This document shows positions 7,479-31,233 of a stretch of DNA of 31,233 nucleotides, one piece after another; positions within the stretch are counted from its first letter, which is position 1; every line of letters starts with the position of its first letter. The position numbers and the translations under genes are program-made. Source of the DNA: Bacillus sp. ISL-7 (GTDB lineage Bacteria > Bacillota > Bacilli > Bacillales_B > DSM-18226). The stretch spans positions 1 to 31,233 of the forward strand of contig NZ_JAGGQW010000093.1 in assembly GCF_018613065.1 (NCBI RefSeq), in the 5' to 3' direction. Below the pieces are notes generated by a model, which was not told the DNA's origin, did no database searches, and was given only the letters and a program-made list of their open reading frames with translations.

Positions 7479-8462
7479 ATGGAAAATGTATTTGATTACG
7501 AAGATATCCAATTGATTCCGGCAAAAAGTGTTGTAAATAGCCGCTCTGAGTGTGATACAACTGTATCCTTTGGCGGGCATACATTTAAGCTGCCGGTGGT
7601 TCCTGCAAATATGCAGACGATTATCGACGAAAAGATAGCCATTTACTTAGCTGAAAATGGCTACTTTTATATCATGCATCGTTTTGAGCCAGGTAAGCGA
7701 TTATCATTTATCAAAGATATGAAATCACGAGGTTTATTGTCATCTATCAGTGTTGGAGTTAAAGAGGAGGAGTACCAATTTATCAAACAATTAGCGGATG
7801 AACAGATTTCACCCGAATTTATAACCATTGATATCGCACATGGTCATTCCAATGCGGTAATTAAAATGATTCAGCATATTAAGAAGTACATACCTAACAG
7901 TTTTGTCATAGCTGGAAATGTCGGAACTCCTGAAGCAGTCAGAGAATTAGAACACGCTGGTGCGGATGCGACTAAAGTTGGGATTGGACCTGGGAAGGTA
8001 TGTATCACCAAGATTAAGACTGGATTTGGGACTGGCGGCTGGCAATTAGCTGCACTGCGTTGGTGTGCAAAGGCAGCGAGTAAGCCGATTATTGCTGACG
8101 GAGGGATTCGCACACATGGTGATATCGCCAAATCCATTAGATTCGGGGCAACCATGGTGATGATTGGTTCATTGTTTGCAGGACACGAAGAGTCGCCAGG
8201 AGAAACTATCGAGAAAGATGGTAAGTGTTATAAAGAATACTTTGGATCAGCATCGGAATTTCAAAAAGGGGAAAAGAAAAATGTAGAAGGCAAAAAAATG
8301 TTTGTTGAGTACAAAGGCTCTTTAAAAGAAACGTTGATAGAGATGGAGCAAGACCTTCAATCCTCTATTTCTTACGCAGGAGGAAATAAGTTAGCAGCCA
8401 TCCGTAATGTAGATTATGTGGTTGTTAAGAATTCAATCTTTAATGGGGATAAGGTCTATTAA
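7479..8462 (+). CDS. guaC: GMP reductase
   Basis: GMP reductase converts GMP to IMP and ammonia with NADPH, feeding guanine nucleotides back to adenine nucleotide synthesis in the cytoplasm. The 327-aa protein has the IMPDH/GMPR barrel fold. It carries NVGTPEA (about 147-153), the catalytic loop [11 protein letters not shown] with C175, and the phosphate-binding [13 protein letters not shown] segment; the length fits the single-domain GuaC family. The start was moved to ATG 7479 because AAGGAGG at 7467-7473 lies inside the longer TTG frame. A weak hairpin follows the stop. The gene stands alone, divergent from the kinase operon. A decayed second copy lies at 1740-1817. Confidence 0.95.
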
Positions 8463-8509
8463 AGGCTTTGAAGAGTTCTGTATAAACTATTAGTGGTTAT
8501 AAATGGAAA

Positions 8510-8530
8510 AGGGACGCCAAAAGCGTCCTT
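8510..8530 (+). terminator. Hairpin downstream of guaC
   Basis: AGGGACGC pairs with GCGTCCTT (one G-T pair) around CAAAA. The following bases (CATCTGTTGTT) are only modestly T-rich. It lies about 48 bases past the guaC stop, in the 208-base gap to the convergent malic enzyme gene, in which nothing else was recognised. Confidence 0.5.
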
Positions 8531-8670
8531 CATCTGTTGTTAAACAATTTCATTGAATTACGAAAAATAGCTCACTTCCCAATGAACCCTTTGGGCAATG
8601 GCTGAATAGCTTCCGCTTAGCAAGTGAATTTTGATGATATTGAACTAGTTTTGATCGACTTCCTCTTATC

Positions 8671-10020
8671 CTAATTTGGCAGGTATTCCGCTCCGTCTGC
8701 TTTCCTATTAGATTGAACAGCCGCTCTTTCAACCGCTTCGGTCACCATTTTATGAACATGTAAATCTAAAGGATGCGGAACCAAATCTCCAAGTTTAGTA
8801 CATGCTGCGATCGCTTCAGCGGCAGCGACTAGCATAGGATGGGTGATTTCACTAGCTTGCGCGTTTAAAGCTCCTCGAAAAATACCAGGAAATCCAAGAA
8901 CATTGTTAACAGAGCGGCCATCTGCCGCATATGCAGCTCCCGCCTGCAGGGCTAATTCCGGTTCGATTTCCGGTTTAGGGTTTGATAATGCTAAAATCAC
9001 CTGCCCTGGGCGTACCCATTGCTGTTGAATCAGTCCAGGAACACCTGTAGTGGCGATAACGATATCACAGTTCCTCAATAATAGTTCAATGCTATCAACT
9101 GGATGACCGCCATAGTTCTCTAACCTCGCCTTCGCATCCGGAGATAAATCTGCTCCAAATACAGTCTTTACTCCGTATGCCATAAGCATTCGAGAAATCG
9201 CCAACCCTGCTGCTCCAAGGCCAATCTGGCCAACTTGTGCATTTTTCAAGTCAAGACCGGCACTTTTACACGCTGATATCGTGGCAGCCAGGGTAACGAC
9301 AGCCGTTCCATGCTGATCATCATGCATTACCGGAATATCCAGCTCCTTCTTAAGTCGTTCTTCGACCTCGAAACAGTGTGGAGACCCTATATCTTCGAGT
9401 AAAATACCACTATAACCCGGAGAAATATTTTTCACTGTCCGTACAATCTCATCCGGGTCTTTCGTATTAAGTAGAATCGGAATCCCATTAATACCAGCTA
9501 ATTGGTCGAAGAGAACAGCCTTCCCCTCCATAACTGGCATTCCGGCAACAGGGCCGATGTCTCCCATGCCAAGAATCGCGGTTCCGTCAGTAACGATCGC
9601 TACCGAATTACCAATACTCGTATAAATTTTTGCTTTATCCGGTTCTGCCTCGATAATTCGGCAAACATCGGCCACACCTGGTGTATAAACTCTTCTTAAA
9701 TCAGCTAATGTTTGAAGATTCACTTTACTTTTCATATGAATTTTCCCTCCTTCATGTGCATGAAGGACTTCATCTGAAACAGCATGAAGACGAATTCCCC
9801 CGTCTAACCGGGAGAGAGCGTCTGCCAATTCTTCTATCTGCTCCTCATGATCGACCTGAACAGTAAAATTACGTATTGTGTAATTTGGACCTACCTTTAC
9901 CGTTTCTATTTCCCCTATATCTCCACCTGCAAGACCAATTGTCGTTGCTACTTTCCCGAGATTACCGGGGAAGGAAGGTGTTTCTACCATCAACGTTCGA
10001 ATAATTTGTTTGCTAATCAT
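8671..10020 (-). CDS. Malic enzyme with N-terminal ACT domain
   Basis: This enzyme oxidatively decarboxylates malate to pyruvate and CO2 with reduction of NAD(P). The 449-aa protein has an ACT domain in residues 1-80 (MISKQIIRTLMVETPSFPG), often a ligand-sensing module. The malic domain follows with VYTPGVADVC and the metal/substrate segments EDIGSPHCFEVEERL and HDDQHGTAVV, then a Rossmann domain with IGLGAAGLAISR and LSNPKPEIEP. The ATG at 10020 follows GGAGG by eight bases; a TTG 39 bases upstream has no such site. Cofactor preference cannot be fixed from sequence. A triplicated GlnL-type motif about 155 bases upstream ties it to the regulator encoded next to it. Confidence 0.9.
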   Translation of the reverse strand: MISKQIIRTLMVETPSFPGNLGKVATTIGLAGGDIGEIETVKVGPNYTIRNFTVQVDHEEQIEELADALSRLDGGIRLHAVSDEVLHAHEGGKIHMKSKVNLQTLADLRRVYTPGVADVCRIIEAEPDKAKIYTSIGNSVAIVTDGTAILGMGDIGPVAGMPVMEGKAVLFDQLAGINGIPILLNTKDPDEIVRTVKNISPGYSGILLEDIGSPHCFEVEERLKKELDIPVMHDDQHGTAVVTLAATISACKSAGLDLKNAQVGQIGLGAAGLAISRMLMAYGVKTVFGADLSPDAKARLENYGGHPVDSIELLLRNCDIVIATTGVPGLIQQQWVRPGQVILALSNPKPEIEPELALQAGAAYAADGRSVNNVLGFPGIFRGALNAQASEITHPMLVAAAEAIAACTKLGDLVPHPLDLHVHKMVTEAVERAAVQSNRKADGAEYLPN

Positions 10021-19723: not shown

Positions 19724-20923
19724 GTGGAGTTACTAAAATCATATACTCAAACGAAATCGACCTATATATTTTGGCTCGTTACAGGGATTATACTTGTAGC
19801 ATTTAATTTGCGCCCCGCGATCACTTCATTAGGGCCACTGGTTGGAATGATTCAGGAAGATGTAGGACTAGCACATTGGAGTACAGGTTTATTAATGAGT
19901 TTGCCATTACTTGTTTTTTCCATCATGTCACCCATCGTGCCAAAGCTCGCCAATCGATTAACAAATGAGGTGACTTTGCTTATAGGTTTGTTCACCCTTT
20001 TAATCGGTATAGGTCTAAGATCCATCCCAATGACGTTTTTCCTTTTTACTGGGACTCTTTTTATTGGAGTGGGTATAGCCGTTGGAAATGTTCTTTTACC
20101 AGCTATTGCAAAGGACAAATTCCCACAGCACTTCGGTCTTATGACAAGTGTTTATTCTACCTCAATGGGATTGTTTGCCTCATTAGCGTCAGGAGTTAGT
20201 GTTCCTTTAGCAGACGGCATGCACCTGGGCTGGCAGGGAGCTTTAATTGTTTGGGGTATTCCGGTCGTGCTAGCTATCTTGGTGTGGGCCTTTCTTTTCA
20301 AATATAATCATGGAAGTCAAACAGATATAAAAAGGCTTGGTTCTAAATCTAATCAAGTTTGGCGTTCACCACTTGCTTGGCAAATCGCCATTTTTATGGG
20401 GTTTCAGTCTTTTTTATTTTATGTAACGATATCTTGGTTACCAGAAATCCTGCATAGTCACGGAATGAGTATGGAGAAAGCAGGGTGGCTGCTTTCAATC
20501 ACCCAAATAGTCGGACTACCTTTCAGTTTCTTCATTCCTGTCATTGCAGGACGTTTCCAATCACAAAAATGGATCGCATTCCTGTTAAGCCTATGCTCTA
20601 TAATTGGTTATGGAGGTTTACTGTTGGGCTCATCCTATCCCGTTTTAATTGTTAGCATTTTTTTCATTGGGATGGCTTTGGGAGGAATCTTTCCATTGTC
20701 ACTAACCTTTATCGGACTTCGCACTAAGAATGCCAGTCAGGCTGCAGAGTTATCTGGAATGGCACAATCAACTGGATATATCCTTGCAGCAGCGGGCCCC
20801 TTTTTTATTGGATATTTATTTGATCAGACCCATTTATGGACAGTTCCACTTAGTGCACTCATCATTATTTCTTTAGTGGTTTTGGTATTTGGGATGTTAG
20901 CGGGTCGCAATCGATACGTATAA
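19724..20923 (+). CDS. MFS transporter, CynX/NimT (YycB) type
   Basis: This 399-aa protein has 12 predicted membrane helices. It is a major facilitator of the CynX/NimT/YycB group, recognisable by NLRPAITSLGPLVGMI in the first helix and loop, GVGIAVGNVLLPAIAKDKFP near residue 115 and the FIGLRTKNASQAAELSGMAQS region. Members move cyanate, 2-nitroimidazole or unknown compounds, mostly outward; the substrate here is unknown. GTG start eight bases after GGGAGG. The stop codon lies inside the palindromic terminator shared with the convergent MFS gene of the aromatic operon, so it probably does not belong to that operon. Confidence 0.85.
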   Translation: MELLKSYTQTKSTYIFWLVTGIILVAFNLRPAITSLGPLVGMIQEDVGLAHWSTGLLMSLPLLVFSIMSPIVPKLANRLTNEVTLLIGLFTLLIGIGLRSIPMTFFLFTGTLFIGVGIAVGNVLLPAIAKDKFPQHFGLMTSVYSTSMGLFASLASGVSVPLADGMHLGWQGALIVWGIPVVLAILVWAFLFKYNHGSQTDIKRLGSKSNQVWRSPLAWQIAIFMGFQSFLFYVTISWLPEILHSHGMSMEKAGWLLSITQIVGLPFSFFIPVIAGRFQSQKWIAFLLSLCSIIGYGGLLLGSSYPVLIVSIFFIGMALGGIFPLSLTFIGLRTKNASQAAELSGMAQSTGYILAAAGPFFIGYLFDQTHLWTVPLSALIIISLVVLVFGMLAGRNRYV

Positions 20924-20972: not shown

Positions 20973-22274
20973 TCACATGACATTTGATGTATTTGCATTT
21001 GATAGATCTGAATTTTCAATCTCTTTAGGACGGACGGCTAGCCAAACTAGTCCACCGAAAACAAGAAGGATTAGCCCGCATAACTGGAACGCATACTGGA
21101 ATCCAGCAGCTGGACTTGCTGAATGTTCAATGAAATAACCTGTTACATAGGGTCCGACAATCCCACCCAATGAAGTAAGCGCCATAAACCACCCTTGAAT
21201 TTTACCTTGATGTTTAGGTGGAACCAAATCTACTAGAATCGCTGGCCCCATAACCAAGGTAATACATCCAAATGTTAACCCAAGTGATAATAATACAATG
21301 GCAAGAATATTAGAGCTGACCATTGCTCCGAAAAAATAGCTGACGGCTCCCGCTAACATTACTGGTCCAAGGACAAAAATCCGTCCCTTTACCATACTTT
21401 TCGTCTTATGATAAAGTCGGTCAGAAATGGTTGAAAAGGTGATTTGCGAAAGGGTAATCATAATCCAAGGCAATGCTACGACAATTTTTAAAGTACCTTC
21501 GCTGAGGTGGCGGACATTTTCTAAATAATTGGGAAGCCAGTTCAGCCCAATCGTAAAGGACCAATAAGTGGCAAAACCACATAAGGCAACTAAGATGAAA
21601 TTTTTCGAAAACAAGGCAGAGGTGAATTTTGTTTCGTTCTGAATAGTGGATAACTTCGTACTGCCTTTTGTTGCAACAAGCTCAGTATCTGTAACCGCTT
21701 TATCCTTTGCGATCCATAACCACACGATAATCCAAATAAAGCCTACTACTCCAGTTGAGATAAACGCCGAGCGCCATCCATAACTCATGATGAGATGCAT
21801 TAAGACCGGTGCTGAAATGGCGACACCAAGCGGTCCGCCAACTGAAACCAATGTTAAACCAATCCCCAATTTTTCCTTTGGAAGATACTTTGAGGCGGCT
21901 GTCATCGCTAAAGCGTAGGAAGGTCCTTCCCCAGCCCCTAAAATGATTCTAGTTACCAATAAATATGTAAAGCTGCTGACAAAGATTGTTGAGAATTGAA
22001 CGATGGACCAAATTGCGACCATACCGGCAATGACTTTTTTCGCTCCAATTTTATCCGCAAGACTGCCGCCTAAAACAGCTGAAAGCGAATATAGTAAGAA
22101 GAAAACACTCCCGACAACTCCCCATTGCTCTGGCGATAATCCTAATTCCTTAATAATTGAAACTGAGGCAAACCCAATAATCGCCTTATCTGCGTTACTA
22201 ATGACCGTTAATAAAAATAACAGGAAGATGATCACCCATGTTTTTTTTGAAACTGCACTTTTCTTTTGCTCCAT
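20973..22274 (-). CDS. MFS transporter (ACS type), likely aromatic acid importer
   Basis: This 433-aa protein has 12 predicted membrane helices. It belongs to the anion:cation symporter branch of the major facilitator superfamily, with ISNADKAIIGFASVSIIKELGL in helix 1, GGSLADKIGAKKVI in the 2-3 loop and GAGEGPSYALAMTAASKY in helix 4. It is the last gene of the meta-cleavage operon, which suggests uptake of the aromatic substrate, probably as an anion. This is inferred from context. The ATG at 22274 directly follows AAGGAGG; a longer frame from 22322 is not supported. It ends in the shared palindromic terminator. Confidence 0.85.
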   Translation of the reverse strand: MEQKKSAVSKKTWVIIFLLFLLTVISNADKAIIGFASVSIIKELGLSPEQWGVVGSVFFLLYSLSAVLGGSLADKIGAKKVIAGMVAIWSIVQFSTIFVSSFTYLLVTRIILGAGEGPSYALAMTAASKYLPKEKLGIGLTLVSVGGPLGVAISAPVLMHLIMSYGWRSAFISTGVVGFIWIIVWLWIAKDKAVTDTELVATKGSTKLSTIQNETKFTSALFSKNFILVALCGFATYWSFTIGLNWLPNYLENVRHLSEGTLKIVVALPWIMITLSQITFSTISDRLYHKTKSMVKGRIFVLGPVMLAGAVSYFFGAMVSSNILAIVLLSLGLTFGCITLVMGPAILVDLVPPKHQGKIQGWFMALTSLGGIVGPYVTGYFIEHSASPAAGFQYAFQLCGLILLVFGGLVWLAVRPKEIENSDLSNANTSNVM

Positions 22275-22385
22275 ATAAGGACCTCCTTGAAATTTCTCCT
22301 TTTTTCCCTCGTTCATTTTCATAGAATGATACTACTTTGATTTCAAGACCTTTCCACCCCTCAATGAAAAGGCCCTTTTAGGAAT

Positions 22386-23177
22386 TTACTTAAATGTAAC
22401 TTCCACCTTACCAATATGTGAAAATCCAGCAGTGAACCGATCCCCTTTTTCGGCCACTTCTGCTGCAGATAATGCCCCTGATAAAATAACTTCTCCCGCT
22501 TTCAAAACAACATTGTATTCGGATAACTTATTTGCCAGCCAGGCCACACATTTGGCAGGATGGCCTAGTACATCTGAACCATATCCTGTATTAATCAGTA
22601 CACCATTTTTAAACAATTTCATTTCAATCGATGGTAAGTCGATATCCCTTAACGAGAATCGCTCATCACCGATGACAAACAATCCGCTTGATGCATTATC
22701 GGCAATCGTGTCTGCTAATGTAATCTTCCAGTCGGTTATCCGGCTGTCGACGATTTCTAAGGCTGGTGCTATATACTCTGTCGCATCAAGGACATCCTCG
22801 ATGGTCACAGATGGACCTTTCAAATCCTTGCTGAGAACAAAGGCAATCTCTCCTTCTACCTTTGGCTGGAACATGGCATCTAAGCTGATGATCCCGTTAT
22901 TACTAATTTCCATAGAATCCAATAGGTGACCGTAATCTGGTTGATCCACACCTAACAGCTGCTGCATGGCAACAGAGGTTAACCCAATTTTTTTCCCAAC
23001 AATACGTTGGCCATCGCCAACCTTCTCATTAATTGCGAGAAGTTGGACCTGATACGCCTCATCAATGGATAATTCTTGGTACAAATCAGTAAGTGGTGTA
23101 ATGGATTGCTTAGCAGCTTCTGCCTGCTGCAAAAGCTCATATACATGTTGAACACGATGAATGACTTGATTGCTCAT
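22386..23177 (-). CDS. 2-oxopent-4-enoate hydratase family (MhpD-like)
   Basis: This enzyme adds water to 2-hydroxypenta-2,4-dienoate to give 4-hydroxy-2-oxovalerate, the step after C-C hydrolysis in meta-cleavage pathways; related enzymes are decarboxylases of 4-oxalocrotonate. The 263-aa length fits the fumarylacetoacetase-like hydratase/decarboxylase family. Motifs seen are VGKKIGLTS (about 62-70), the acidic metal-binding PKVEGEIAFVL (about 106-116), ALEIVDSRI and the C-terminal GDRFTAGFSHIGKVEV. The ATG at 23177 follows AAAGGAG; the longer frame is unsupported. A hairpin with a T-run precedes it, so its level may differ from the upstream genes. Confidence 0.88.
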   Translation of the reverse strand: MSNQVIHRVQHVYELLQQAEAAKQSITPLTDLYQELSIDEAYQVQLLAINEKVGDGQRIVGKKIGLTSVAMQQLLGVDQPDYGHLLDSMEISNNGIISLDAMFQPKVEGEIAFVLSKDLKGPSVTIEDVLDATEYIAPALEIVDSRITDWKITLADTIADNASSGLFVIGDERFSLRDIDLPSIEMKLFKNGVLINTGYGSDVLGHPAKCVAWLANKLSEYNVVLKAGEVILSGALSAAEVAEKGDRFTAGFSHIGKVEVTFK

Positions 23178-23200
23178 AGTAAAAACTCCTTTTGTAAAAA

Positions 23201-23261
23201 AATAAAGCACTATTTCATAGATTCAATATCATGTTAACCTATGAATCAATCAATAGTGCTC
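23201..23261 (-). terminator. Intra-operon hairpin with T-run before the hydratase gene
   Basis: On the minus strand AGCACTAT pairs with ATAGTGCT and TTCATAG with CTATGAA, with a 7-base bulge and an 18-base loop, followed by TTTATTTTTTT. It looks like an intrinsic terminator or attenuator placed between the hydrolase and hydratase genes, 16 bases after the hydrolase stop. It could lower expression of the hydratase and transporter. Confidence 0.6.
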
Positions 23262-23276
23262 TCAAAGTTAGTCTTA

Positions 23277-24167
23277 TTATTTTGTTACCAAGGATGCGTC
23301 GTTTTGATTAGCAGCTTCTTTTCCATTTTTCAATAAGAAGTCTATTAATACAGTGTTAAACTCTTCAGGTTTCTCCCATTGCGGCCAGTGTCCGGCATCT
23401 TTGATGACAACCAACTCACTATTTGGAATCATATCTTGAATCGGTTTCGCTTCTTCAACGGTTGAAGTTGGATCATGGTCTGTCCATGCTAACAATGTCG
23501 GAACATTGATTTTACCGCACCATGATGGATCCCAGCTGTACAGCTTTCTAACTTCAATATCCTGCAGGCAGACGATATGATGAACGGCCTCTTGATAAGC
23601 TGGCTGTGTATAGATTTTGTAACGAGATTCAATTAGTTCATCGTTTACTTGGCTCTTATCATACATTAACCACTGAAGTCTTGTTTTTACATTTTCATAG
23701 TTGGCTTCAAGAACCGCTTTTAACGTGGAGTCCTTCAGCTTTTGCATAACTTCAGGTTTGTTATTAACGTTCCCTGGCGTGTTTAACACCATTGCTTTCA
23801 CATACTCTGGATGTTCAGCCGCAAACCAGGCAGCAACCCAGCCTCCTAATGATTCACCTGAAAGATATACCTTTGATAACCCTAATGCTTGGATAACACC
23901 CAATAAATGCTCACTATAATAATCAATTCCGTATGGGCGATCTGGTTTAGCGGTGTAGCCATGTCCTACCATATCGATGCAAATCACACGGAAATGTTCA
24001 CTTAAGCCTCGGATATTTCGGGCATAAGCCTCAATATGGCCACCCGTACCATGAAGCAAAATCAGGGGCTCTCCTGTTCCTGCTTCTAGTACTCTCGTTT
24101 TAATATCGGTTGCATTAACATAATAGAGTTTATATTCCAAATCAGCTAAGTCTGTCCAGATTGTCAT
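23277..24167 (-). CDS. Alpha/beta hydrolase, meta-cleavage product (C-C) hydrolase
   Basis: This 296-aa hydrolase has the oxyanion segment HGTGG (39-43), nucleophile S106 in GESLGGW, acid D230 or D232 in WTDHDPT and H260 in DAGHWPQWE. By family and context it cleaves the vinylogous diketone produced by the ring dioxygenase into 2-hydroxypentadienoate and a carboxylic acid. Presence of such a hydrolase implies that the ring-fission product is a ketone, hence a 3-substituted catechol. The motif around the serine differs from E. coli MhpC (GNSMGG), so it is not a close MhpC orthologue. The ATG follows GGGGAG. Confidence 0.85.
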   Translation of the reverse strand: MTIWTDLADLEYKLYYVNATDIKTRVLEAGTGEPLILLHGTGGHIEAYARNIRGLSEHFRVICIDMVGHGYTAKPDRPYGIDYYSEHLLGVIQALGLSKVYLSGESLGGWVAAWFAAEHPEYVKAMVLNTPGNVNNKPEVMQKLKDSTLKAVLEANYENVKTRLQWLMYDKSQVNDELIESRYKIYTQPAYQEAVHHIVCLQDIEVRKLYSWDPSWCGKINVPTLLAWTDHDPTSTVEEAKPIQDMIPNSELVVIKDAGHWPQWEKPEEFNTVLIDFLLKNGKEAANQNDASLVTK

Positions 24168-24274
24168 TTAAATCTCCCCTTTTTAAAAATAATAGTTACA
24201 TAGTGGTTTTCTACCTTTTCCATCACTGATGTTGTTGAACCTTTCAATTTCGAGAGTGGTTCCCGCTGCTAACC

Positions 24275-25258
24275 TTAAATGCTTACTTTGTTTTCAGATG
24301 CTTGTTCAGGATGATTTTGGTCAACCGGCTGACTAAACTGAACAATCGCCATACCTGTTACCCATTCCGGAATTGGCTCATAGCATGCGACACTTGCATC
24401 CAAGCTTTGCAGTACACCAAGCAGGACAAGCCAGTTGTGAATTTCCTGACCGCCATTCCCTAAATGCTCCTCAATATAATCAGCACTCCAGTTTCTTAAT
24501 GCAGTAAAATCCTTCTCGGTAATCAATCGTAAAAATTCACGGTCCATTTGTTCATTAACGGGCCCTGATTTAATTCGTGTGACATTTGTTTCCCGTAACT
24601 TTAAATATTCATCCAGCTGGTCTATTTCCTGACGGCCATTTTTTAAGACTTGTATCAAGGATTGGTCTTCTGGCTTTTCACTCTCAATCTTTGGAATCGG
24701 CACCCAGTGAGATAAACCACCCGAAGCGACAATTGCAACTTTAAGATCTTTATCCCATGACTCAATCGCTTTACGAATCACTTCGCCGACTTGGAAACAG
24801 CGGTCCATCGTTGGCAGCGGCGGCGCCGATGTATTCACAGCTATTGGAACCACTGGAATTTTCAAATCTGGATTTAAGAAGTAAATTCCTTGTGTATGGC
24901 CGTGATCGACTTTCATTTTTAACGTAAAGGCAAAATCAATATTGCTGTCTAAACCGGTGTGAAGGATATGCTTCGCTAAGTCTTCCTGCACAGGGATATT
25001 GTATTTCGGCAGCTGCCAGTCTCCCCAGCCTTCACATTCGCCAATCCCAATGGTAAATGCAGGCATTTGGTCGTAGAAATAACTATTGAAATGATCATCC
25101 GATATCAATACAATCACGTCTGCTCCTGAATCTTCGAGTACCTTCCTCATTTCAGACGCAGTTTGGAGGAAGTGCTGTCCTTTATCTCCGCCTCCCGCCT
25201 CATTTGTCATGATCATCGGACTATGCGACATTGCGACACCTGCAATAATTTTAGCCAT
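24275..25258 (-). CDS. Extradiol ring-cleavage dioxygenase, LigB superfamily, MhpB-like
   Basis: This 327-aa enzyme opens a catechol ring next to a hydroxyl group using Fe(II) and O2. It aligns by eye along its length with E. coli MhpB (2,3-dihydroxyphenylpropionate 1,2-dioxygenase). H12 (SHSP) and H56 (DDHFNSYFYDQMP) are the metal ligands, and H119 (VDHGH) and H184 (GGLSHW) match the catalytic histidines. The C-terminus IPEWVTGMAIV corresponds to IPEWIAGFG of MhpB. The side chain accepted is not evident. The ATG follows AAGGAGAGG. It lies 17 bases after the FAD synthetase stop. Confidence 0.9.
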   Translation of the reverse strand: MAKIIAGVAMSHSPMIMTNEAGGGDKGQHFLQTASEMRKVLEDSGADVIVLISDDHFNSYFYDQMPAFTIGIGECEGWGDWQLPKYNIPVQEDLAKHILHTGLDSNIDFAFTLKMKVDHGHTQGIYFLNPDLKIPVVPIAVNTSAPPLPTMDRCFQVGEVIRKAIESWDKDLKVAIVASGGLSHWVPIPKIESEKPEDQSLIQVLKNGRQEIDQLDEYLKLRETNVTRIKSGPVNEQMDREFLRLITEKDFTALRNWSADYIEEHLGNGGQEIHNWLVLLGVLQSLDASVACYEPIPEWVTGMAIVQFSQPVDQNHPEQASENKVSI

Positions 25259-25275
25259 TTGATCCTCTCCTTTTT

Positions 25276-26091
25276 TTAAGATATCCTTAATTTTCTAGAC
25301 TCAGCTATTTCTTTATGCCAAATAATGGATAGTTTCCCCTTTAAAAATAAAGGCATAACATCGATACATTTGAGCGTTGTACCATCATTCATTACGGCTA
25401 CTTTTGTTTGAAAAGAACCTCTTTCATTTCTTAAGGTAACCTCATAGCTTCCTGGACCTGGAAGAGTATAATAGGGGTAAAGTGTGAATGATATTTCATC
25501 CCATTCGCATGGAGTTTCATAGAATCGACCGAGTAAATCGTGCAGTTCTGCAACCTTCCCGTTTAACAGCCGATCACGAATACAGGTGGAACTTATTTTT
25601 TCGCCCCGGAGCTCTACCTTTGCTACTTTGGTGACATCAATTCGACCGCCTGAGTCCTGTTTTAACCGTTCCAAATTACCAGCACCACGAGAGCCATATG
25701 AAAAATCAAATCCTGCGACTGCATGAATTACACCAAGACCATTTAAGTATTGCGCAACAAACTGTTCTGGCGATAATCCGGCAAACTCTTTATCAAATTC
25801 AACAATATAAAACGTATCGACTCCCATGTTCCGAAGCTTCGTCTCTTTTTCCGCAAGCGGCATTAAATAATGGACGTGAATGTTTCCATTGGAGATAACG
25901 GTTTTCGGATGTGGGAAGAAACTCATGACAGCAAAAGGCATTTGTTTTTCGCTTGCCTTTTGATAAGCGGTGTTGATGACTGCACAATGTCCATGATGGA
26001 GACCGTCGAAACAACCAAGGGCCATCACATTTGGCCTCGCCTTTTCCTGCCATTCTGCCAAATTACTCCGGTTTACATGAATTGTTTCCAT
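25276..26091 (-). CDS. FAD synthetase (FMN adenylyltransferase) without riboflavin kinase site
   Basis: This 271-aa protein has the N-terminal FMN adenylyltransferase domain of RibF/RibC with GCFDG (26-30), HHGH (32-35), GFDFSYGSRGAG (127-138) and SSTCIRD (167-173). It should turn FMN and ATP into FAD. The C-terminal part keeps a barrel-like remnant (PGPGSYEVTL) but lacks the kinase loop (usually GxGRxxGFPTAN) expected after LLGRFYE, and the protein is 40-50 residues shorter than RibF. It is embedded between the flavin reductase and dioxygenase genes, so it is probably a pathway-dedicated FAD supplier, not the housekeeping enzyme. The ATG follows GAGAGGAG. Confidence 0.85.
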   Translation of the reverse strand: METIHVNRSNLAEWQEKARPNVMALGCFDGLHHGHCAVINTAYQKASEKQMPFAVMSFFPHPKTVISNGNIHVHYLMPLAEKETKLRNMGVDTFYIVEFDKEFAGLSPEQFVAQYLNGLGVIHAVAGFDFSYGSRGAGNLERLKQDSGGRIDVTKVAKVELRGEKISSTCIRDRLLNGKVAELHDLLGRFYETPCEWDEISFTLYPYYTLPGPGSYEVTLRNERGSFQTKVAVMNDGTTLKCIDVMPLFLKGKLSIIWHKEIAESRKLRIS

Positions 26092-26112
26092 AACAGTCTC
26101 CTCTCATCATCC

Positions 26113-26592
26113 TTAGATTGTCACAGGCAATACTTCTACTAATGAACGGTACTTTCCATTATAAAAAATCAGTGGTTCTGCATCTTCAAGGTGAATATCC
26201 GTTACTTTGCCAATAAACAAGGTGTGGTCCCCTTCAACATGTTCAGCTGATACTTCACATGCAACTTGTGCAACAGCACCAGATAATACCGGCTTTCCAT
26301 CAAGGCGGTCAAAGACCACTTCCTTGTGCTCCTTCAATTGTCCAGCGAAAATCATTGAAAGCTCTTGCTGGTCAGCGGCTAAGATATTCACAGTGAAAAT
26401 CTTGCTTTCTTTTATTTTGTTTAAGATCTTTGCCTTTTCCCCGATAGAAATAACGATAAGTTTTGGGTCAAGCGACACAGACATGAACGCATTCGCTGTC
26501 ATTCCGTGAACGTCTCCCTCTACTTCTGTGGCAATAACGGTTACCCCTGTGGCAAACTTACCCATTGCACTGCGAAACTGACGATCATCCAT
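26113..26592 (-). CDS. Flavin reductase, HpaC/HsaB-type
   Basis: This 159-aa protein belongs to the flavin reductase domain family (HpaC, PheA2, HsaB). It opens with FRSAMGKFATGVTVIAT, followed by HGMTANAFMSVSLDPKLIVISI and FTVNILA, all typical FMN/FAD binding segments. It would reduce free flavin with NAD(P)H and pass it to the monooxygenase encoded directly upstream, as in two-component hydroxylases. The ATG follows AGGAGG. It lies 66 bases after the monooxygenase and 21 bases before the FAD synthetase gene. Confidence 0.9.
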   Translation of the reverse strand: MDDRQFRSAMGKFATGVTVIATEVEGDVHGMTANAFMSVSLDPKLIVISIGEKAKILNKIKESKIFTVNILAADQQELSMIFAGQLKEHKEVVFDRLDGKPVLSGAVAQVACEVSAEHVEGDHTLFIGKVTDIHLEDAEPLIFYNGKYRSLVEVLPVTI

Positions 26593-26658
26593 TTTAAAAA
26601 TCCTCCTGTGATAAAAATTTCTATAAAGCTTGTTAGCTATGATTCGTACCCTTCGAAT

Positions 26659-27843
26659 TTAACCCCTAACTCCACTGTTAAAACCGAATAACTCCTGACC
26701 ATATGCAGCAACCGCATCTTCGTATAAAGAAGTTTTATGTGTAGCAACGGCGATGATATCCCTTAAGAACAATTCCATTGGTCCGCCTTTATAAAGAGCA
26801 CCTCCGCCAAGAGTTAACAGAGATCTTACGGCAATATCCGTGCAAATCTTAATCGCTTTTGTGCGGATTGCAAAGAATTCAGATGGAGGAGTTATACAGC
26901 CATCTGTTTCAAAGTTTTCTAGCAGATTAATATATTTTTCTAGCAAAGCTTCCGCCAGGTGGAAATCAGTTGTCATTTCGGCTAATACCCGCTGACTTCT
27001 TGGTGACTCACTTTCCCTTACTCCATCCATTAAGCGCACACGTTTTTCAGTAAGCACTTTAAATTCCTTAAGAATCCGTTCTGCCCCGCCCAGGGCCATG
27101 TAACCGAATCCCAAATAGAAGGAGGGAAAGAATGGGACATGATAAAAAGGATAGTCTATTTCATATTCTTCTAGCGGTGGTCTTCTTGTAAGCTCTGCTT
27201 GATCTAAACGCAAAATCCGCTCCATTGGGACATACACTTGATCGGCAATAATTTGGTTACTTCCTGATCCTCTTAAGCCAAATGTATCCCAGTTATGGAC
27301 CACTTCCACCTCGGATGTTTTTAGCATTGGCAAACAATATACAGGTTGTTCGCTGTCAGGAAACTGAATCATAACCCCAACACCAACCCAATCACTATAA
27401 TTGACACCACTGACAAAACTCCACTTGCCGCTGATACGATAACCATCGCCATCCCGTTCTGCTTTTCCTAATGCAGCAAAGATATCGCAAATTAATCCGC
27501 CCTGATGAATGATTTCGTCTGCACCCTTTTCAGGAAGAAATGCTGGAAGCATATTATGAAGCGGATAAAGATAGGTAAGCCAAGCTGCTGAAATATTGTA
27601 ATTCGCCACCTTACGAACGACCTTAGCAAACGTTTTCAAATCTGCCTGTGGTCCGCCATATTTTTTTGGAAGCATCATCCGTGAAATTTGCGTTTCTTTG
27701 ATGAGGTTCACCACATTTTGTGATATAGTCGCATTTTTCTCTGCTTCTAGTGCTTCTTGCTCTGCCAATTTTCCAATTCGCTCCGCTCCGGCTAGTAAAT
27801 CTTCAACTGTGACATCTTCCCCTTTTAATACAAAACTTGCCAT
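26659..27843 (-). CDS. Flavin-dependent monooxygenase, acyl-CoA dehydrogenase fold (HsaA-like)
   Basis: This 394-aa protein has the acyl-CoA dehydrogenase fold but group D monooxygenase features, as in HsaA and 4-hydroxyphenylacetate hydroxylase C2. These include PKKYGGPQADL near 60, YRISGKWSFVSGVNYSDWV near 134, WDTFGLRGSGSN near 184 and the C-terminal RDIIAVATHKTSLYEDA. Such enzymes use reduced flavin from a partner reductase to hydroxylate a phenol ortho to its hydroxyl, giving a catechol. The next gene encodes the reductase and another makes FAD, a consistent set. The phenolic substrate is unknown. It is the first gene of the operon, preceded by a candidate operator at 27899-27922. Confidence 0.87.
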   Translation of the reverse strand: MASFVLKGEDVTVEDLLAGAERIGKLAEQEALEAEKNATISQNVVNLIKETQISRMMLPKKYGGPQADLKTFAKVVRKVANYNISAAWLTYLYPLHNMLPAFLPEKGADEIIHQGGLICDIFAALGKAERDGDGYRISGKWSFVSGVNYSDWVGVGVMIQFPDSEQPVYCLPMLKTSEVEVVHNWDTFGLRGSGSNQIIADQVYVPMERILRLDQAELTRRPPLEEYEIDYPFYHVPFFPSFYLGFGYMALGGAERILKEFKVLTEKRVRLMDGVRESESPRSQRVLAEMTTDFHLAEALLEKYINLLENFETDGCITPPSEFFAIRTKAIKICTDIAVRSLLTLGGGALYKGGPMELFLRDIIAVATHKTSLYEDAVAAYGQELFGFNSGVRG

Positions 27844-27898
27844 CGTTCTACACCCCTTCTGTTTGATTAGATATAATTGTTGAGAAAAATAATAGGTT

Positions 27899-27922
27899 AT
27901 GGACTAACGTCCGTTGGTCCAT
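27899..27922. promoter_or_regulatory. 24-bp imperfect palindrome, candidate TetR-type operator
   Basis: The core GGACTAACGTCCGTTGGTCC (27901-27920) equals its reverse complement at 16 of 20 positions, extended by AT at both ends. Size and symmetry fit TetR-family operators. It lies 56-79 bases upstream of the monooxygenase start. No TetR gene is in the window; the only regulator nearby is the XylR_N/V4R/PucR protein. Confidence 0.45.
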
Positions 27923-28096
27923 TTAGCTGGCACCGCTTACATTTGAAATTGAACTAGGTTTTTACTATTTCAACCTTGTAAATAAAGTTTATATAATTTG
28001 TAATTTTCATACTAGGGCAAAAAATGTCTATGTTTTTTAATTTACTAGACAAAATTTGTTCATCCAAGAGAAATCAGCGGTGGAAAAAGGCAGAAG

Positions 28097-28125
28097 AAAA
28101 ACCACCCGGCTTATTCCGGATGGCT
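28097..28125 (-). terminator. Terminator of the aromatic regulator gene
   Basis: On the minus strand AGCCATCCGG pairs with CCGGGTGGTT (two G-U pairs) around a 5-6 base loop, followed by TTTC. It begins directly at the stop of the regulator gene and separates it from the operon promoter region (27844-28096), which is AT-rich and holds the palindrome at 27899-27922. Confidence 0.8.
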
Positions 28126-29994
28126 CTAATCTAATGTGAGTTCCCCTATGGCAATCAACGATTTTATAATCAGTAGTAATTGATGCATTTCATCTGAATC
28201 GCGAAGGTCTTTTTCTAATAAGCTTTCGATTCTGCTAATCCTATGCCGGAGCCCGCTCATCGATAAAGACAAATCACTCATCGTTTGCTCAAGCTTTCCC
28301 CCATTCAACAAAAAACTATACAAAGTTTTTAGAAGTTCGAGGATTTTTGGATCTGTCATGTTATATAGAGGTCCTAATTCTTGCTCAGCAATTAGTTTAA
28401 TCCCACTGATATTTTTCGCGTTAATCAGTACCCCTACGATTCCTAATGATTGAAACGGGACGATATGCTTCTTGACTGCTAATCGTAAAGCAATGGTTGC
28501 TTCCTCGTAACATCTGGATGCTTGGCAAATATCATCCTCTAAATGGCTGATACCACATTTAAAATGACCTTGTGGATATCTTTTTAACATATAATCGAGG
28601 TATTCTTTTATCACATCATAGATCGCTTTCTTTTGAATGGTTTCATTGGTTATCAATAACACCATGTTGCCATCACGGTGTCCAACCAAGATATTATGCT
28701 TTTTCTCATTGAAATAATGAAAGGTCGTTTCAAAAATATGTTCCTGCAGAAGAAACTCATCTTCAATTGAACTTTGGATTTTTTTATATTCCACTACCGA
28801 TAGATAGTATTTCTGCTCAAGATCTACACCAGTATATTTCCCTCGATTGATGATCTCATTTGTAGACAGCCTGCCCTCTACTATTTGTTCAAGAAAATTC
28901 CCCTTCATTCTCTCAAACGTTTCTACCTTTGTTTTCTCATTTAAGAGAATGAGTGAGGCTGCATTGGCAAATCGGTCTAAAAACAAATAATCCTCTTCGT
29001 GATGGTGATTTTTCATTTCATCATAAAGCAAGGTACAATAACCGATTACCTCTTTTTGTAAAAGTATTGGGGTGATGAGACGTTCTTGAATCGAAGTTTT
29101 GATCACTTTTTTTCTAAAGGGTAAAAGTGACTTCGTGCTTAATCGATTTTCTTGAAGATAACTTTCCATATCGTCTCGATAATCCAAATATTTTTCCTTC
29201 GATAGCCCCGAATAGGTAATCGTTCGATGTAACGTATCCTCAACGATAATAGGGATTTGCATCATTTTATATACCATATCAGCTAAGGTTTGCAAATCAC
29301 TGCCATTAATAATCTCTTCGGTCAATTTGTTTTGAAAATTGGCCAAGCGAGTGACGACATTTTTCTGATCCAATAATTGGTCATAGGTTAACTCAAGTTC
29401 TTTTACAATCGGTGTTTCATTATAATAATCGAGTTCATGCTCATCTTGAAGTTCCTTTTCCCATTCCTTTTTGGGCTTCATCACCCATCGGCACTCCGAA
29501 TCGCCCTTCCCCACACAAGTGATTTCTCTCGACAGAAGCGATTCTCCAAATATTGTTGTCATAAAACCGCTCGCAAATCCGCTCAATGTGTGACAAACCG
29601 GACCATTAGATACTCCGAGATGCTTTATATGCTCCTCAGCCTCATAAGAATCAATCCATGTTCCGGATGAAAAGAAATATTGGATCCGGCGTTGTTCATC
29701 TAACTCATAAGAGCAATCATGTTTAATCCCTCTTATATGCCCATTTTGAATGTGAAGAATCGGCCCATGTTTGATGAGATTTTCTAGTGAGGATTCGGTT
29801 TGCACCACTTCATTGGCAATTTTGACACCCATTTCCCAGCCATAATGAAATAAAAATCCCTTTATCCTCTTAATGCCAATATTCTTTGCCAGTTGCTGCC
29901 TGAGAATCCCGAAAACGGATGCAGATGTAACAATCTTACGGTCACCTGCAACTACCTCGTGGCTATAACTCTCCTCCGAAACCTTGACGTTCAT
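28126..29994 (-). CDS. Aromatic-sensing regulator: XylR_N, V4R, GAF-like, PucR helix-turn-helix
   Basis: This 622-aa regulator has an XylR_N (activator of aromatic catabolism) domain in about residues 12-110 and a V4R domain in about 125-195 with GVSNGPVCHTLSGFASGF and CVGKGDSECRW. A helical linker and GAF-like region (about 225-375), a CdaR/PucR GGDEF-like region (about 385-520) and a C-terminal PucR-type helix-turn-helix (about 555-615, with MSDLSLSMSGLRHRISRIESLL) complete it. XylR and DmpR carry the same sensor but join it to a sigma-54 AAA+ domain; none is present here. The ATG at 29994 is preferred because XylR_N starts nearby and AGGA lies nine bases upstream; an ORF to 30111 is possible. 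It likely controls the operon downstream. Confidence 0.85.
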   Translation of the reverse strand: MNVKVSEESYSHEVVAGDRKIVTSASVFGILRQQLAKNIGIKRIKGFLFHYGWEMGVKIANEVVQTESSLENLIKHGPILHIQNGHIRGIKHDCSYELDEQRRIQYFFSSGTWIDSYEAEEHIKHLGVSNGPVCHTLSGFASGFMTTIFGESLLSREITCVGKGDSECRWVMKPKKEWEKELQDEHELDYYNETPIVKELELTYDQLLDQKNVVTRLANFQNKLTEEIINGSDLQTLADMVYKMMQIPIIVEDTLHRTITYSGLSKEKYLDYRDDMESYLQENRLSTKSLLPFRKKVIKTSIQERLITPILLQKEVIGYCTLLYDEMKNHHHEEDYLFLDRFANAASLILLNEKTKVETFERMKGNFLEQIVEGRLSTNEIINRGKYTGVDLEQKYYLSVVEYKKIQSSIEDEFLLQEHIFETTFHYFNEKKHNILVGHRDGNMVLLITNETIQKKAIYDVIKEYLDYMLKRYPQGHFKCGISHLEDDICQASRCYEEATIALRLAVKKHIVPFQSLGIVGVLINAKNISGIKLIAEQELGPLYNMTDPKILELLKTLYSFLLNGGKLEQTMSDLSLSMSGLRHRISRIESLLEKDLRDSDEMHQLLLIIKSLIAIGELTLD

Positions 29995-30264
29995 GCTAAC
30001 ACATCCTGTTTTCATGATAGATAGCATACGTCCTTCTAGTTGAAAACAAATCTTTTCGTATGCCTCAAATTTCAGTAATTTAATCATAAGGCTTTTCAAA
30101 TAGACCATCAATCAAAATTCACCATTTTCCCACGAAGAGCACCTTAACCTAGAGGATCTTCTCCAAATTGTCCCCATAGATTTGGAAACATCTCTAATTT
30201 AGAAAATCCTCGTATTACTTTATTTAACTTTCTCCCAAACTACATTAGTATAGTCCTTCATATT

Positions 30265-31233
30265 TTAGGATTTGTTGTTAGGTTCCACCGTTATGACAAC
30301 ATTTCCCTTTTTGTGTCCTTTTTCGACATATCTATGAGCCTCAACGATTTCTTCAAACGCATAGGATCTGTCAATGACCACTTTTAACTTCCCCGTCTCA
30401 ACAAGTTCTTTAAGAAAATCTAGTGCTTCTGAAGTTTCAGGTGAGTTTTGACTCAATATTAGTTTTTTGCTGCTTGTCAATTTAGTCCATAGCATCCGAA
30501 CACCTGGTATCGGTACAGTGACATTTATATAGGTTCCGTCCTTCTTTAGCGATTTCATACAAGCCGAAAACGAGCTCTTGTCAACCGCTTCAAAGATCAC
30601 ATCATAAGTCTCGCCTTTACTCGAAAAATCTTCTGCAGTGTAATCAATTACCTGATCCGCTCCAAGAGATTTTACCAATTCTATATTCGTGGTACTGCAT
30701 ACTCCTGTAACATTTGCTCCGAGATATTTGGCAATCTGAACTGCATAACTTCCTACACTTCCTGAAGCACCATAAACTAGAACCCTTTGACCGCTCTGAA
30801 TGTTAGCTTTTCTAAGAAAATACAATGCGGTGCGTGCTCCAATAGGAATGGCAGCGGCTTCCTCATATGTTAAATTGGAGGGCTTAATAGATACTGGTCC
30901 ATCTTCAGGCAGACACTTATACTCAACATAAGCACCAAACCCCAAAAGAGAAGCAGCAAAAACCTGATCACCTTCCTTAAACCTTTTGACATTTTTCCCT
31001 ACTGCCTCAACTTCCCCAGCTAACTCCATTCCCAATGTAGTTTTTTTGGGTTGTCTAAAACCAAGTGTTAGTCGGGCAGGCAGCCAAAAAGCGGGAGGAA
31101 CTGTAAAACTCCGTGCCCGAATATCTGCTACTGTTACGGTTGTCGCTTTTACTTTTACCAGGATTTCATTTTCCTTAGGAGAAGGTTTTTCTACCTCTTT
31201 CAGTTGAAGAACGAGGGCACTGAAAAACTTACG
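30265..31233 (-). CDS. NAD(P)-dependent alcohol dehydrogenase / quinone oxidoreductase (partial)
   Basis: The frame is open from the stop at 30265 to the right edge, giving 322 residues and lacking only the first few codons. It is a medium-chain dehydrogenase of the zinc-independent quinone oxidoreductase type. It shows [28 protein letters not shown], the cofactor loop [17 protein letters not shown] and [15 protein letters not shown], then the C-terminal [10 protein letters not shown]. No structural-zinc cysteine cluster is visible. It reduces quinones or activated alkenes in related proteins; the substrate here is unknown. It is separated by about 270 bases from the aromatic regulator and shows no sign of sharing its operon. 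Confidence 0.88.

Follow-up and report, generated by a model that had tools for sequence, protein, structure and literature searches.

Gene content of the locus

The window analysed here (the whole stretch of 31,233 nucleotides from Bacillus sp. ISL-7) carries, on the minus strand between positions 20973 and 30111, eight genes for aromatic meta-cleavage: seven enzyme and transporter genes and, co-directional with them, a sensor-regulator gene. Profile searches confirmed all eight and matched the functions named for them in an initial annotation made from the sequence. Among the seven, the intergenic gaps measure 17–107 bp, and the hydroxylase gene is separated from the sensor gene by 282 bp. 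The set is a real and conserved operon, a new variation on known meta-cleavage operons built from parts of known kinds. Its likely role is the inducible breakdown of a ring-substituted phenol. This is proposed because of the family assignments, the conserved gene set, the similarity to a phe-type operon on a Parageobacillus thermoglucosidasius plasmid (locus L089), the phenol-class residues of the sensor and a conserved upstream element, together with the presence of an aldolase in relatives and the differing first oxygenases that accompany one kind of dioxygenase. The features are as follows.

28126..30111, minus strand: sensor-regulator with XylR_N, V4R, GGDEF_2 and HTH_30 domains (Pfam; alignment to MopR and CapR (DmpR))
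28011..28063, minus strand: 53-bp twin-dyad element, candidate operator (leave-one-out matrix search)
27986..27995, minus strand: -10-like TATATAAACT, 15 bp downstream of the 53-bp element (consensus from 27 upstream regions, including one misaligned)
26659..27843, minus strand: oxygenase part of a two-component flavin monooxygenase (acyl-CoA-dehydrogenase fold, group D), phe-type-like
26113..26592, minus strand: flavin reductase partner (Flavin_Reduct in Pfam; 66% identity to the phe-type reductase)
25276..26091, minus strand: flavin adenine dinucleotide (FAD) synthetase, i.e. a flavin mononucleotide (FMN) adenylyltransferase, with an apparently shortened flavokinase remnant (FAD_syn in Pfam; RibF alignment; AlphaFold2 (AF2) model)
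24275..25258, minus strand: class III extradiol dioxygenase, MhpB/LigB-like (LigB in Pfam; 29% identity to Escherichia coli MhpB; alignment with solved MhpB-type and LigAB chains)
23277..24167, minus strand: C-C bond (meta-cleavage product) hydrolase (profile matches, solved relatives)
22386..23210, minus strand: 2-hydroxypenta-2,4-dienoate hydratase (TIGR03220; 59% identity to the phe-type hydratase)
20973..22322, minus strand: major facilitator superfamily (MFS) importer (best match, 2A0114 subfamily)

The extent first given for the operon ends the sensor gene at 29994. This is an ATG inside the listed open reading frame, which runs to 30111, and forms its codon 40; translation may start at this ATG. 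Judging by Shine-Dalgarno-like sequences, the hydratase is likely to start at ATG 23177 (preceded by AAAGGAG) and the importer at ATG 22274 (preceded by AAGGAGG). Upstream of the sensor lies a gene for a zinc-type quinone oxidoreductase (PIG3-like; 30265–31233, minus strand). It is probably cut by the window edge rather than broken, since its reading frame appears to continue beyond that edge.

Conservation of the gene set around the dioxygenase

A scan of named genomes seeded with the dioxygenase returned 36 loci, in Bacillaceae and their relatives. Since some share a strain name (L006 and L020; L023 and L030; L019, L032 and L034), these represent about 32 genomes, and because of the seed the counts are silent on genomes that lack the dioxygenase. 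The gene set recurred around the dioxygenase, which makes it more than a chance grouping and agrees with the conserved synteny expected at the outset, although eight of the 36 loci (L015, L016, L019, L020, L024, L025, L029 and L030) have a Rieske oxygenase as the first oxygenase. Among named relatives, Bacillus sp. OV166 is the nearest, its dioxygenase being 98% identical, and many near relatives are named Neobacillus. In tblastn searches of the stretches examined, the sensor (at least 45% identity), the hydroxylase (at least 67%) and the hydrolase were each found in 27 of the 28 non-Rieske loci, the FAD synthetase in 26, the reductase and the importer in 23 each, and the hydratase in 18. L032 is exceptional in that its hydroxylase matches reach 24–26% only; at L011 the sensor lies elsewhere (32% identity).

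The hydroxylase, reductase, FAD synthetase and window-type importer (at least 40% identity) were found in none of the eight Rieske loci by tblastn, the stretch for L015 ending about 1 kb past the dioxygenase. The dioxygenases of these loci are nevertheless 66–77% identical to that of the window. In a dioxygenase tree of 38 rows (L018 missing; MhpB outgroup very distant and root uncertain) the Rieske-linked enzymes were intermixed with the hydroxylase-linked ones, and the starred branches require the partner to have changed at least twice. Further, a Priestia aryabhattai plasmid cluster combines a dioxygenase of 71% identity with an HpaB-type hydroxylase, an aromatic-acid importer, a reductase and an FAD synthetase; the importer is MhpT/PcaK-like, at 279 and 272 bits, under the cut-offs of 410 and 770. 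Thus, three kinds of oxygenase (Rieske, phe-like and HpaB-type) adjoin one kind of dioxygenase.

The possibility that the Rieske siblings are 3-phenylpropionate dioxygenases was considered and rejected: solved biphenyl, cumene and benzene dioxygenases from the same clade matched at 655–733 bits, versus 452 for the 3-phenylpropionate enzyme. The top NCBIfam model for the sibling alpha subunit was HcaE (516 bits, under the cut-off of 830), and this subunit is 69% identical to its counterpart in a Polaromonas bph operon.

Other arrangements of related genes were observed. At L007 and L033 a second set follows the operon downstream, with a related sensor (52–56%), a glyoxalase-type dioxygenase, another hydrolase and a hydroxylase of 67–68% identity. 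Bacillaceae clusters L075 and L081–L083 contain a related sensor, hydrolase, dioxygenase, flavoprotein, hydroxylase (53–55%) and FAD synthetase. In L081, NCBIfam models pointed to an HsaD-like hydrolase, a catechol 2,3-dioxygenase-like enzyme, TcuA-like flavoproteins and a methylisocitrate-lyase-like protein. These four clusters perhaps serve another aromatic pathway.

The sensor-regulator and the conserved upstream element

The sensor matched XylR_N (42.3 bits, cut-off 23) and V4R (42.8 bits, cut-off 31), both of them sensing domains of the DmpR/XylR class. Its HTH_30 match (36.3 bits, cut-off 27) identifies it as a PucR-type regulator; the middle part of the protein had no Pfam match, and GGDEF_2 together with the PucR-type HTH_30 makes up the output. 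No Pfam match to a sigma-54 AAA+ domain was found in the sensor, nor any match to a sigma-54-type pattern in the 28 upstream regions.

Residues H120, W152, C173, E196, C199 and C207 of the sensor were kept in all 30 regulators compared, which came from the window and the non-Rieske loci, and in every one of a second set of 14, the window again among them. In an alignment to MopR they correspond to H106, W134, C155, E178, C181 and C189, of which we take the first two to position the hydroxyl and the other four to be the zinc ligands. According to the available text of PMC7264223, His100 and Trp128 of DmpR flank the phenol hydroxyl, three Cys and one Glu coordinate its zinc, and the toluene/xylene sensor XylR has Tyr at the His100 position. 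Window-type sensors have His where this hydrocarbon sensor has Tyr. The proposal of a meta-cleavage operon under an aromatic sensor is upheld, the XylR_N and V4R domains and these residues marking the sensor as phenol-class. The eight Rieske-linked regulators lack the XylR_N/V4R residue region, and the single one that was domain-scanned had GGDEF_2 and HTH_30 only. All 30 regulators have a small residue at the position of MopR Y176; the idea that it signals a bulky ligand was rejected, since Ala occupies this position in the phe-type sensor too.

Between the sensor and hydroxylase genes, the 53-bp element consists of two GAACA-N5-TGTTC-like sites 32 bp apart. In a leave-one-out matrix search it scored above 20 in 24 of the 28 upstream regions, the window included, while the best score in 840 dinucleotide shuffles was -7.8; the shuffles overstate independence, since the matrix was seeded with eight sites from the same set of regions and a good number of the loci are closely related. 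The distant loci L026, L028, L031 and L035 retain the element. Among the four regions scoring below 20, L018, L021 and L023 contain, in our reading, its parts with a one-base shift, and L011 contains none of them. Among 31 other loci, L074 (the same operon in a further genome) scored highest at 31.8, followed by L080 at 1.6; the eight Rieske loci reached -3.2 at best, and the phe-type operon -18.0. A strict twin-dyad search, which the matrix search replaced, had matched 11 of the 28 regions, the window not among them (shuffles: mean 0.38, maximum 2).

A TGnnCTAG core was present in 27 of the 28 regions (in L035 the script picked another copy) and was followed by a conserved -10-like stretch. 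These arrangements suggest that the sensor may bind at the twin-dyad element and that TATATAAACT may act as part of the promoter. A palindrome near the hydroxylase gene, GGACCAACGGACGTTAGTCC, was discarded as a candidate since its pattern matched the window and, with differing letters, L022 only. Consensus scans for promoters and terminators yielded matches near chance level.

Hydroxylase, ring-cleavage enzymes and importer

With an Acyl-CoA_dh_2 match above cut-off and an adjacent Flavin_Reduct gene, the hydroxylase belongs to the group D two-component flavin monooxygenases, the solved members of which matched it at 71–114 bits. The description 'HsaA-type', used initially, proved imprecise. 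The HsaA model (NF045629) is still its best NCBIfam match, but the score of 157 bits misses the curated cut-off of 450 (p-hydroxyphenylacetate hydroxylase C2, NF045920: 152 bits, cut-off 650), and phe-type monooxygenases are clearly closer. The best relatives in a plasmid collection were of two kinds, a Peribacillus asahii protein (47.5%) and Parageobacillus plasmid monooxygenases (46.5–46.8%). The latter belong to an operon that matches the published phe operon in its gene set, as the available text of PMC2590616 gives it. The flavin reductase likewise resembles its phe-type counterpart.

The dioxygenase is a class III extradiol enzyme according to its LigB match (PF02900; 158.5 bits, cut-off 26.3). 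It scored 172 bits against the 3-carboxyethylcatechol 2,3-dioxygenase model (NF009910), under the cut-off of 291, and its best solved relative is MhpB-type. The hydrolase, an alpha/beta hydrolase by its profile match, reached neither the BphD nor the HsaD equivalog cut-off (109 and 126 bits; cut-offs 462 and 400), HsaD being its best NCBIfam match. Its best solved relatives, to which we assign gene names partly by assumption, were CarC-type, CumD-type, BphD and HsaD enzymes (123–101 bits), with MhpC at 76 bits. Degradation of a steroid ring, to which the best NCBIfam matches of the hydroxylase (HsaA) and hydrolase (HsaD) might point, is highly improbable: both matches fall far under cut-off, the phe-type enzyme is far closer to the hydroxylase, and no steroid-specific gene is found among the eight.

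The hydratase, by profile of the 2-oxopent-4-enoate type, scored 306 bits against TIGR03220 (cut-off 409). For the last steps, all 23 of the relatives searched encode an aldolase that passes its cut-off, as against none of 14 control genomes; aldolase and acetaldehyde dehydrogenase occurred together in the stretch examined at 10 of the 36 loci, seven of them hydroxylase loci. The importer was best matched by the 2A0114 subfamily (162 bits, cut-off 395), which we take to be one of anion symporters (ACS). Convergent with the importer gene lies a gene for a CynX/NimT-family MFS transporter (19724–20923, plus strand; TIGR00896, 374 bits, cut-off 406).

The FAD synthetase

An FAD synthetase inside a catabolic operon is an unusual arrangement. 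The enzyme matched PF06574 (153.9 bits, cut-off 27) and contains both nucleotide motifs (GCFDGLHHGH and ISSTCIR). No Pfam match to a Flavokinase domain was found in it, so it does not qualify as a bifunctional RibF. Compared with five housekeeping RibF proteins it is shorter (271 versus 316–338 residues) and lacks the stretch GDKRGRTIGFPTAN. Its AF2 model (21 sequences; mean predicted local distance difference test score 90.8) retrieved RibF-type structures in Foldseek, and for this reason the kinase half seems to survive as a shortened remnant.

Its association with the hydroxylase was inspected in 193 genomes of the same GTDB family, with hydroxylase presence defined as a match at E 1e-60 or better (37 genomes). 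An FAD synthetase closer than the housekeeping RibF occurred in 36 of the 37 hydroxylase-bearing genomes and in 10 of the 156 hydroxylase-free ones; the dividing line was set by us between 1.7e-50 and 4.1e-49, and a strict limit of 1e-50 gives 35 of 37. In the nearest genus the figures were 24 of 24 with, and 7 of 37 without, the hydroxylase. These counts ignore descent, and many of the genomes share the same operon. In four of the 10 FAD-synthetase-positive, hydroxylase-free genomes, which were inspected, an HpaB-type hydroxylase (L084, L085) or a protein matching the HsaA model (L066, L067) was encoded near or beside the gene.

In 20 further FAD synthetase neighbourhoods, picked by us and 16 kb each, an oxygenase lay nearby in 16. 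Hydroxylase homologues of at least 40% identity were present in 11 of the 20 (one being L074), HpaB-type hydroxylases in L084 and L085, and proteins best matched by the HsaA model (243–287 bits, under cut-off) in L071, L077 and L080. No such oxygenase was detected in L069, L070, L078 and L086, where the scan covered part of the genes; L069 has an acyl-CoA dehydrogenase. In L076 (positions 8103–9716), FAD synthetase and hydratase share a single reading frame of 537 residues; a gene fusion or a sequencing error might account for this.

Taken together, catabolic FAD synthetases of Bacillaceae could well be RibF derivatives that lost the kinase, travel with two unrelated sorts of two-component flavin monooxygenase, one of the acyl-CoA-dehydrogenase fold and one of the HpaB kind, and raise FAD only when an aromatic inducer is present, in the window under a DmpR-type sensor with PucR-type output and a twin operator unseen in the phe-type operon. 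This proposal is put forward tentatively.

Nature of the substrate

The hydrolase had been taken to imply a 3-substituted catechol. By itself it is no proof of one, since, as described in the available text of PMC2590616, the hydrolytic branch can also process the semialdehyde formed from unsubstituted catechol. The further suggestion of a 3-substituted, carboxylated substrate is favoured by the importers (the 2A0114 match and the MhpT/PcaK-like protein of the sibling plasmid cluster) but opposed by the Rieske siblings, with their oxygenase of the biphenyl/cumene/toluene type, and the CarC/BphD-like hydrolase. Whether the side chain is carboxylated (hydroxyphenylpropionate or cinnamate type) or a neutral alkyl or aryl group is left undecided, with equal weight on each.

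As a functional counterpart of mhp, the operon would take up 3-(2- or 3-hydroxyphenyl)propionate or a hydroxycinnamate; hydroxylation would give 2,3-dihydroxyphenylpropionate or the corresponding cinnamate, and ring cleavage would lead to release of succinate or fumarate. The best models of the dioxygenase are indeed 3-carboxyethylcatechol dioxygenases, although below cut-off, its best solved relative is MhpB-type, and the two importers fit an acid. This possibility is nonetheless somewhat doubtful given identities of only 29% to MhpB and 27% to MhpC, a hydrolase nearer to the CarC, CumD and BphD types, and Rieske siblings that group with biphenyl, cumene and benzene enzymes rather than with the 3-phenylpropionate enzyme. 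Those same siblings, whose biphenyl/cumene-type oxygenase adjoins dioxygenases of 66–77% identity and which have no window-type importer, agree better with a neutral 2- or 3-alkylphenol, a cresol or a hydroxybiphenyl, from which acetate, a short fatty acid or benzoate would be released. The phe-like hydroxylase, the phenol-type sensor and the CarC/BphD-like hydrolase also speak for a neutral compound. This reading is just as doubtful as the carboxylated one: neither the importers of the 2A0114 type, which 23 of 28 non-Rieske loci have, nor the aromatic-acid importer of the Priestia plasmid would be expected for a neutral compound, and the Rieske locus L024 has a different MFS gene further downstream.

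A hydroxybenzoate route appears unlikely. In it, 3-hydroxybenzoate or salicylate would be converted to 2,3-dihydroxybenzoate and cleaved beside the carboxyl-bearing carbon, the hydrolase freeing oxalate (chemistry reasoned by us). It is suggested by Neobacillus sp. EB600, which, in the available text of PMC12442788, excretes 2,3-dihydroxylated benzoate products when growing on benzoate by a pathway left open there; a genome with that strain name (Bacillus sp. EB600) carries the Rieske sibling L019. However, that genome has seven more Rieske alpha genes (30–34% identity), as many as the p-cumate-like operons that the same text reports; in another strain such metabolites did not signify such a pathway; and the genome is tied to the isolate by strain name, no EB600 accession appearing in that text.

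Proposed pathway and its significance

In the inducible phenol operon that is favoured here, the importer would take up the compound and the XylR_N/V4R sensor would bind a phenolic ligand, its PucR-type domain activating the promoter at the 53-bp element. The reductase and the phe-like monooxygenase would then add an ortho-hydroxyl with reduced flavin, the operon's FAD synthetase presumably converting FMN to FAD for the hydroxylase or a related flavoprotein. The resulting catechol would be opened by the MhpB-like dioxygenase, as its family suggests, and the C-C hydrolase would split off a carboxylic acid, leaving 2-hydroxypenta-2,4-dienoate. From this, the hydratase would make 4-hydroxy-2-oxovalerate, and an aldolase and acetaldehyde dehydrogenase encoded outside the operon would yield pyruvate and acetyl-CoA.

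Several observations weigh against this interpretation. All eight proteins score under the curated cut-offs of their best NCBIfam models, and the assignments therefore stay at family level. Among the 28 non-Rieske loci the FAD synthetase is absent from two, the reductase from five and the hydratase from 10, and the clues to the side chain conflict, importers against Rieske siblings. As to cofactor supply, the related enzymes XiaF, C2-HpaH and HsaA take FMN as well as FAD (available text of PMC5481743), which makes an FAD requirement of the hydroxylase less secure, and no FAD synthetase gene lies in the examined stretch of the phe-type operon.

Searches of the open-licence literature for V4R–PucR sensors, for phenylpropionate meta-cleavage among Bacillaceae and for FAD synthetases within aromatic operons gave, as far as titles and abstract openings go, no account of this arrangement, with its MhpB-like dioxygenase, FAD synthetase link and 53-bp element; in the available text of the monooxygenase paper PMC5481743 the sole mention is in the reference list. 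The locus fills part of a thin record on aromatic catabolism in Gram-positive spore formers. It offers one kind of ring-cleavage enzyme found beside three unrelated oxygenases, and suggests that cofactor synthesis can belong to a catabolic operon. It also provides a conserved candidate operator for the sensor type of PheR, the mode of which was left open when PheR was described (available text of PMC2590616). L019, in turn, is a candidate gene cluster for a possible benzoate 2,3-dihydroxylation pathway of EB600 (PMC12442788, available text).

Comparison with known systems

The E. coli mhp operon shares with the window a class III dioxygenase, a C-C hydrolase and a hydratase in identical order. 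The identities are low, however (29%, 27% for hydrolase/MhpC and 40%, respectively), the mhp aldolase and dehydrogenase are not among the window's seven genes, and BLASTP at E 1e-3 gave no match between the window hydroxylase and MhpA or between the sensor and MhpR. The layout is unlike that of mhp, as had been expected. Like DmpR, MopR and XylR, the sensor combines XylR_N with V4R, and its hydroxyl-positioning and zinc residues are those of DmpR and MopR; it differs from them in its output, GGDEF_2 and a PucR helix-turn-helix with no sigma-54 AAA+ match. The FAD synthetase has the adenylyltransferase half of RibF, motifs included, in a RibF-type fold, but its kinase half is shortened.

The phe-type operon L089, the proteins of which were used here instead of the published Geobacillus stearothermophilus phe proteins (PMC2590616), is alike in its monooxygenase (46.5%), reductase (66%) and hydratase (59%). 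The four Pfam domains of the window's sensor recur, identically ordered, in that of L089 (31.5% identity over 92%), and the idea that this architecture is new to science was consequently rejected. Catechol 2,3-dioxygenase, a ferredoxin and the oxalocrotonate branch belong to the phe set only, as given in the available text; the first and last of these are not among the eight genes of 20973–30111. The MhpB-like dioxygenase, C-C hydrolase, FAD synthetase, importer and 53-bp element, in contrast, are found in the window and not in the examined stretch of L089.

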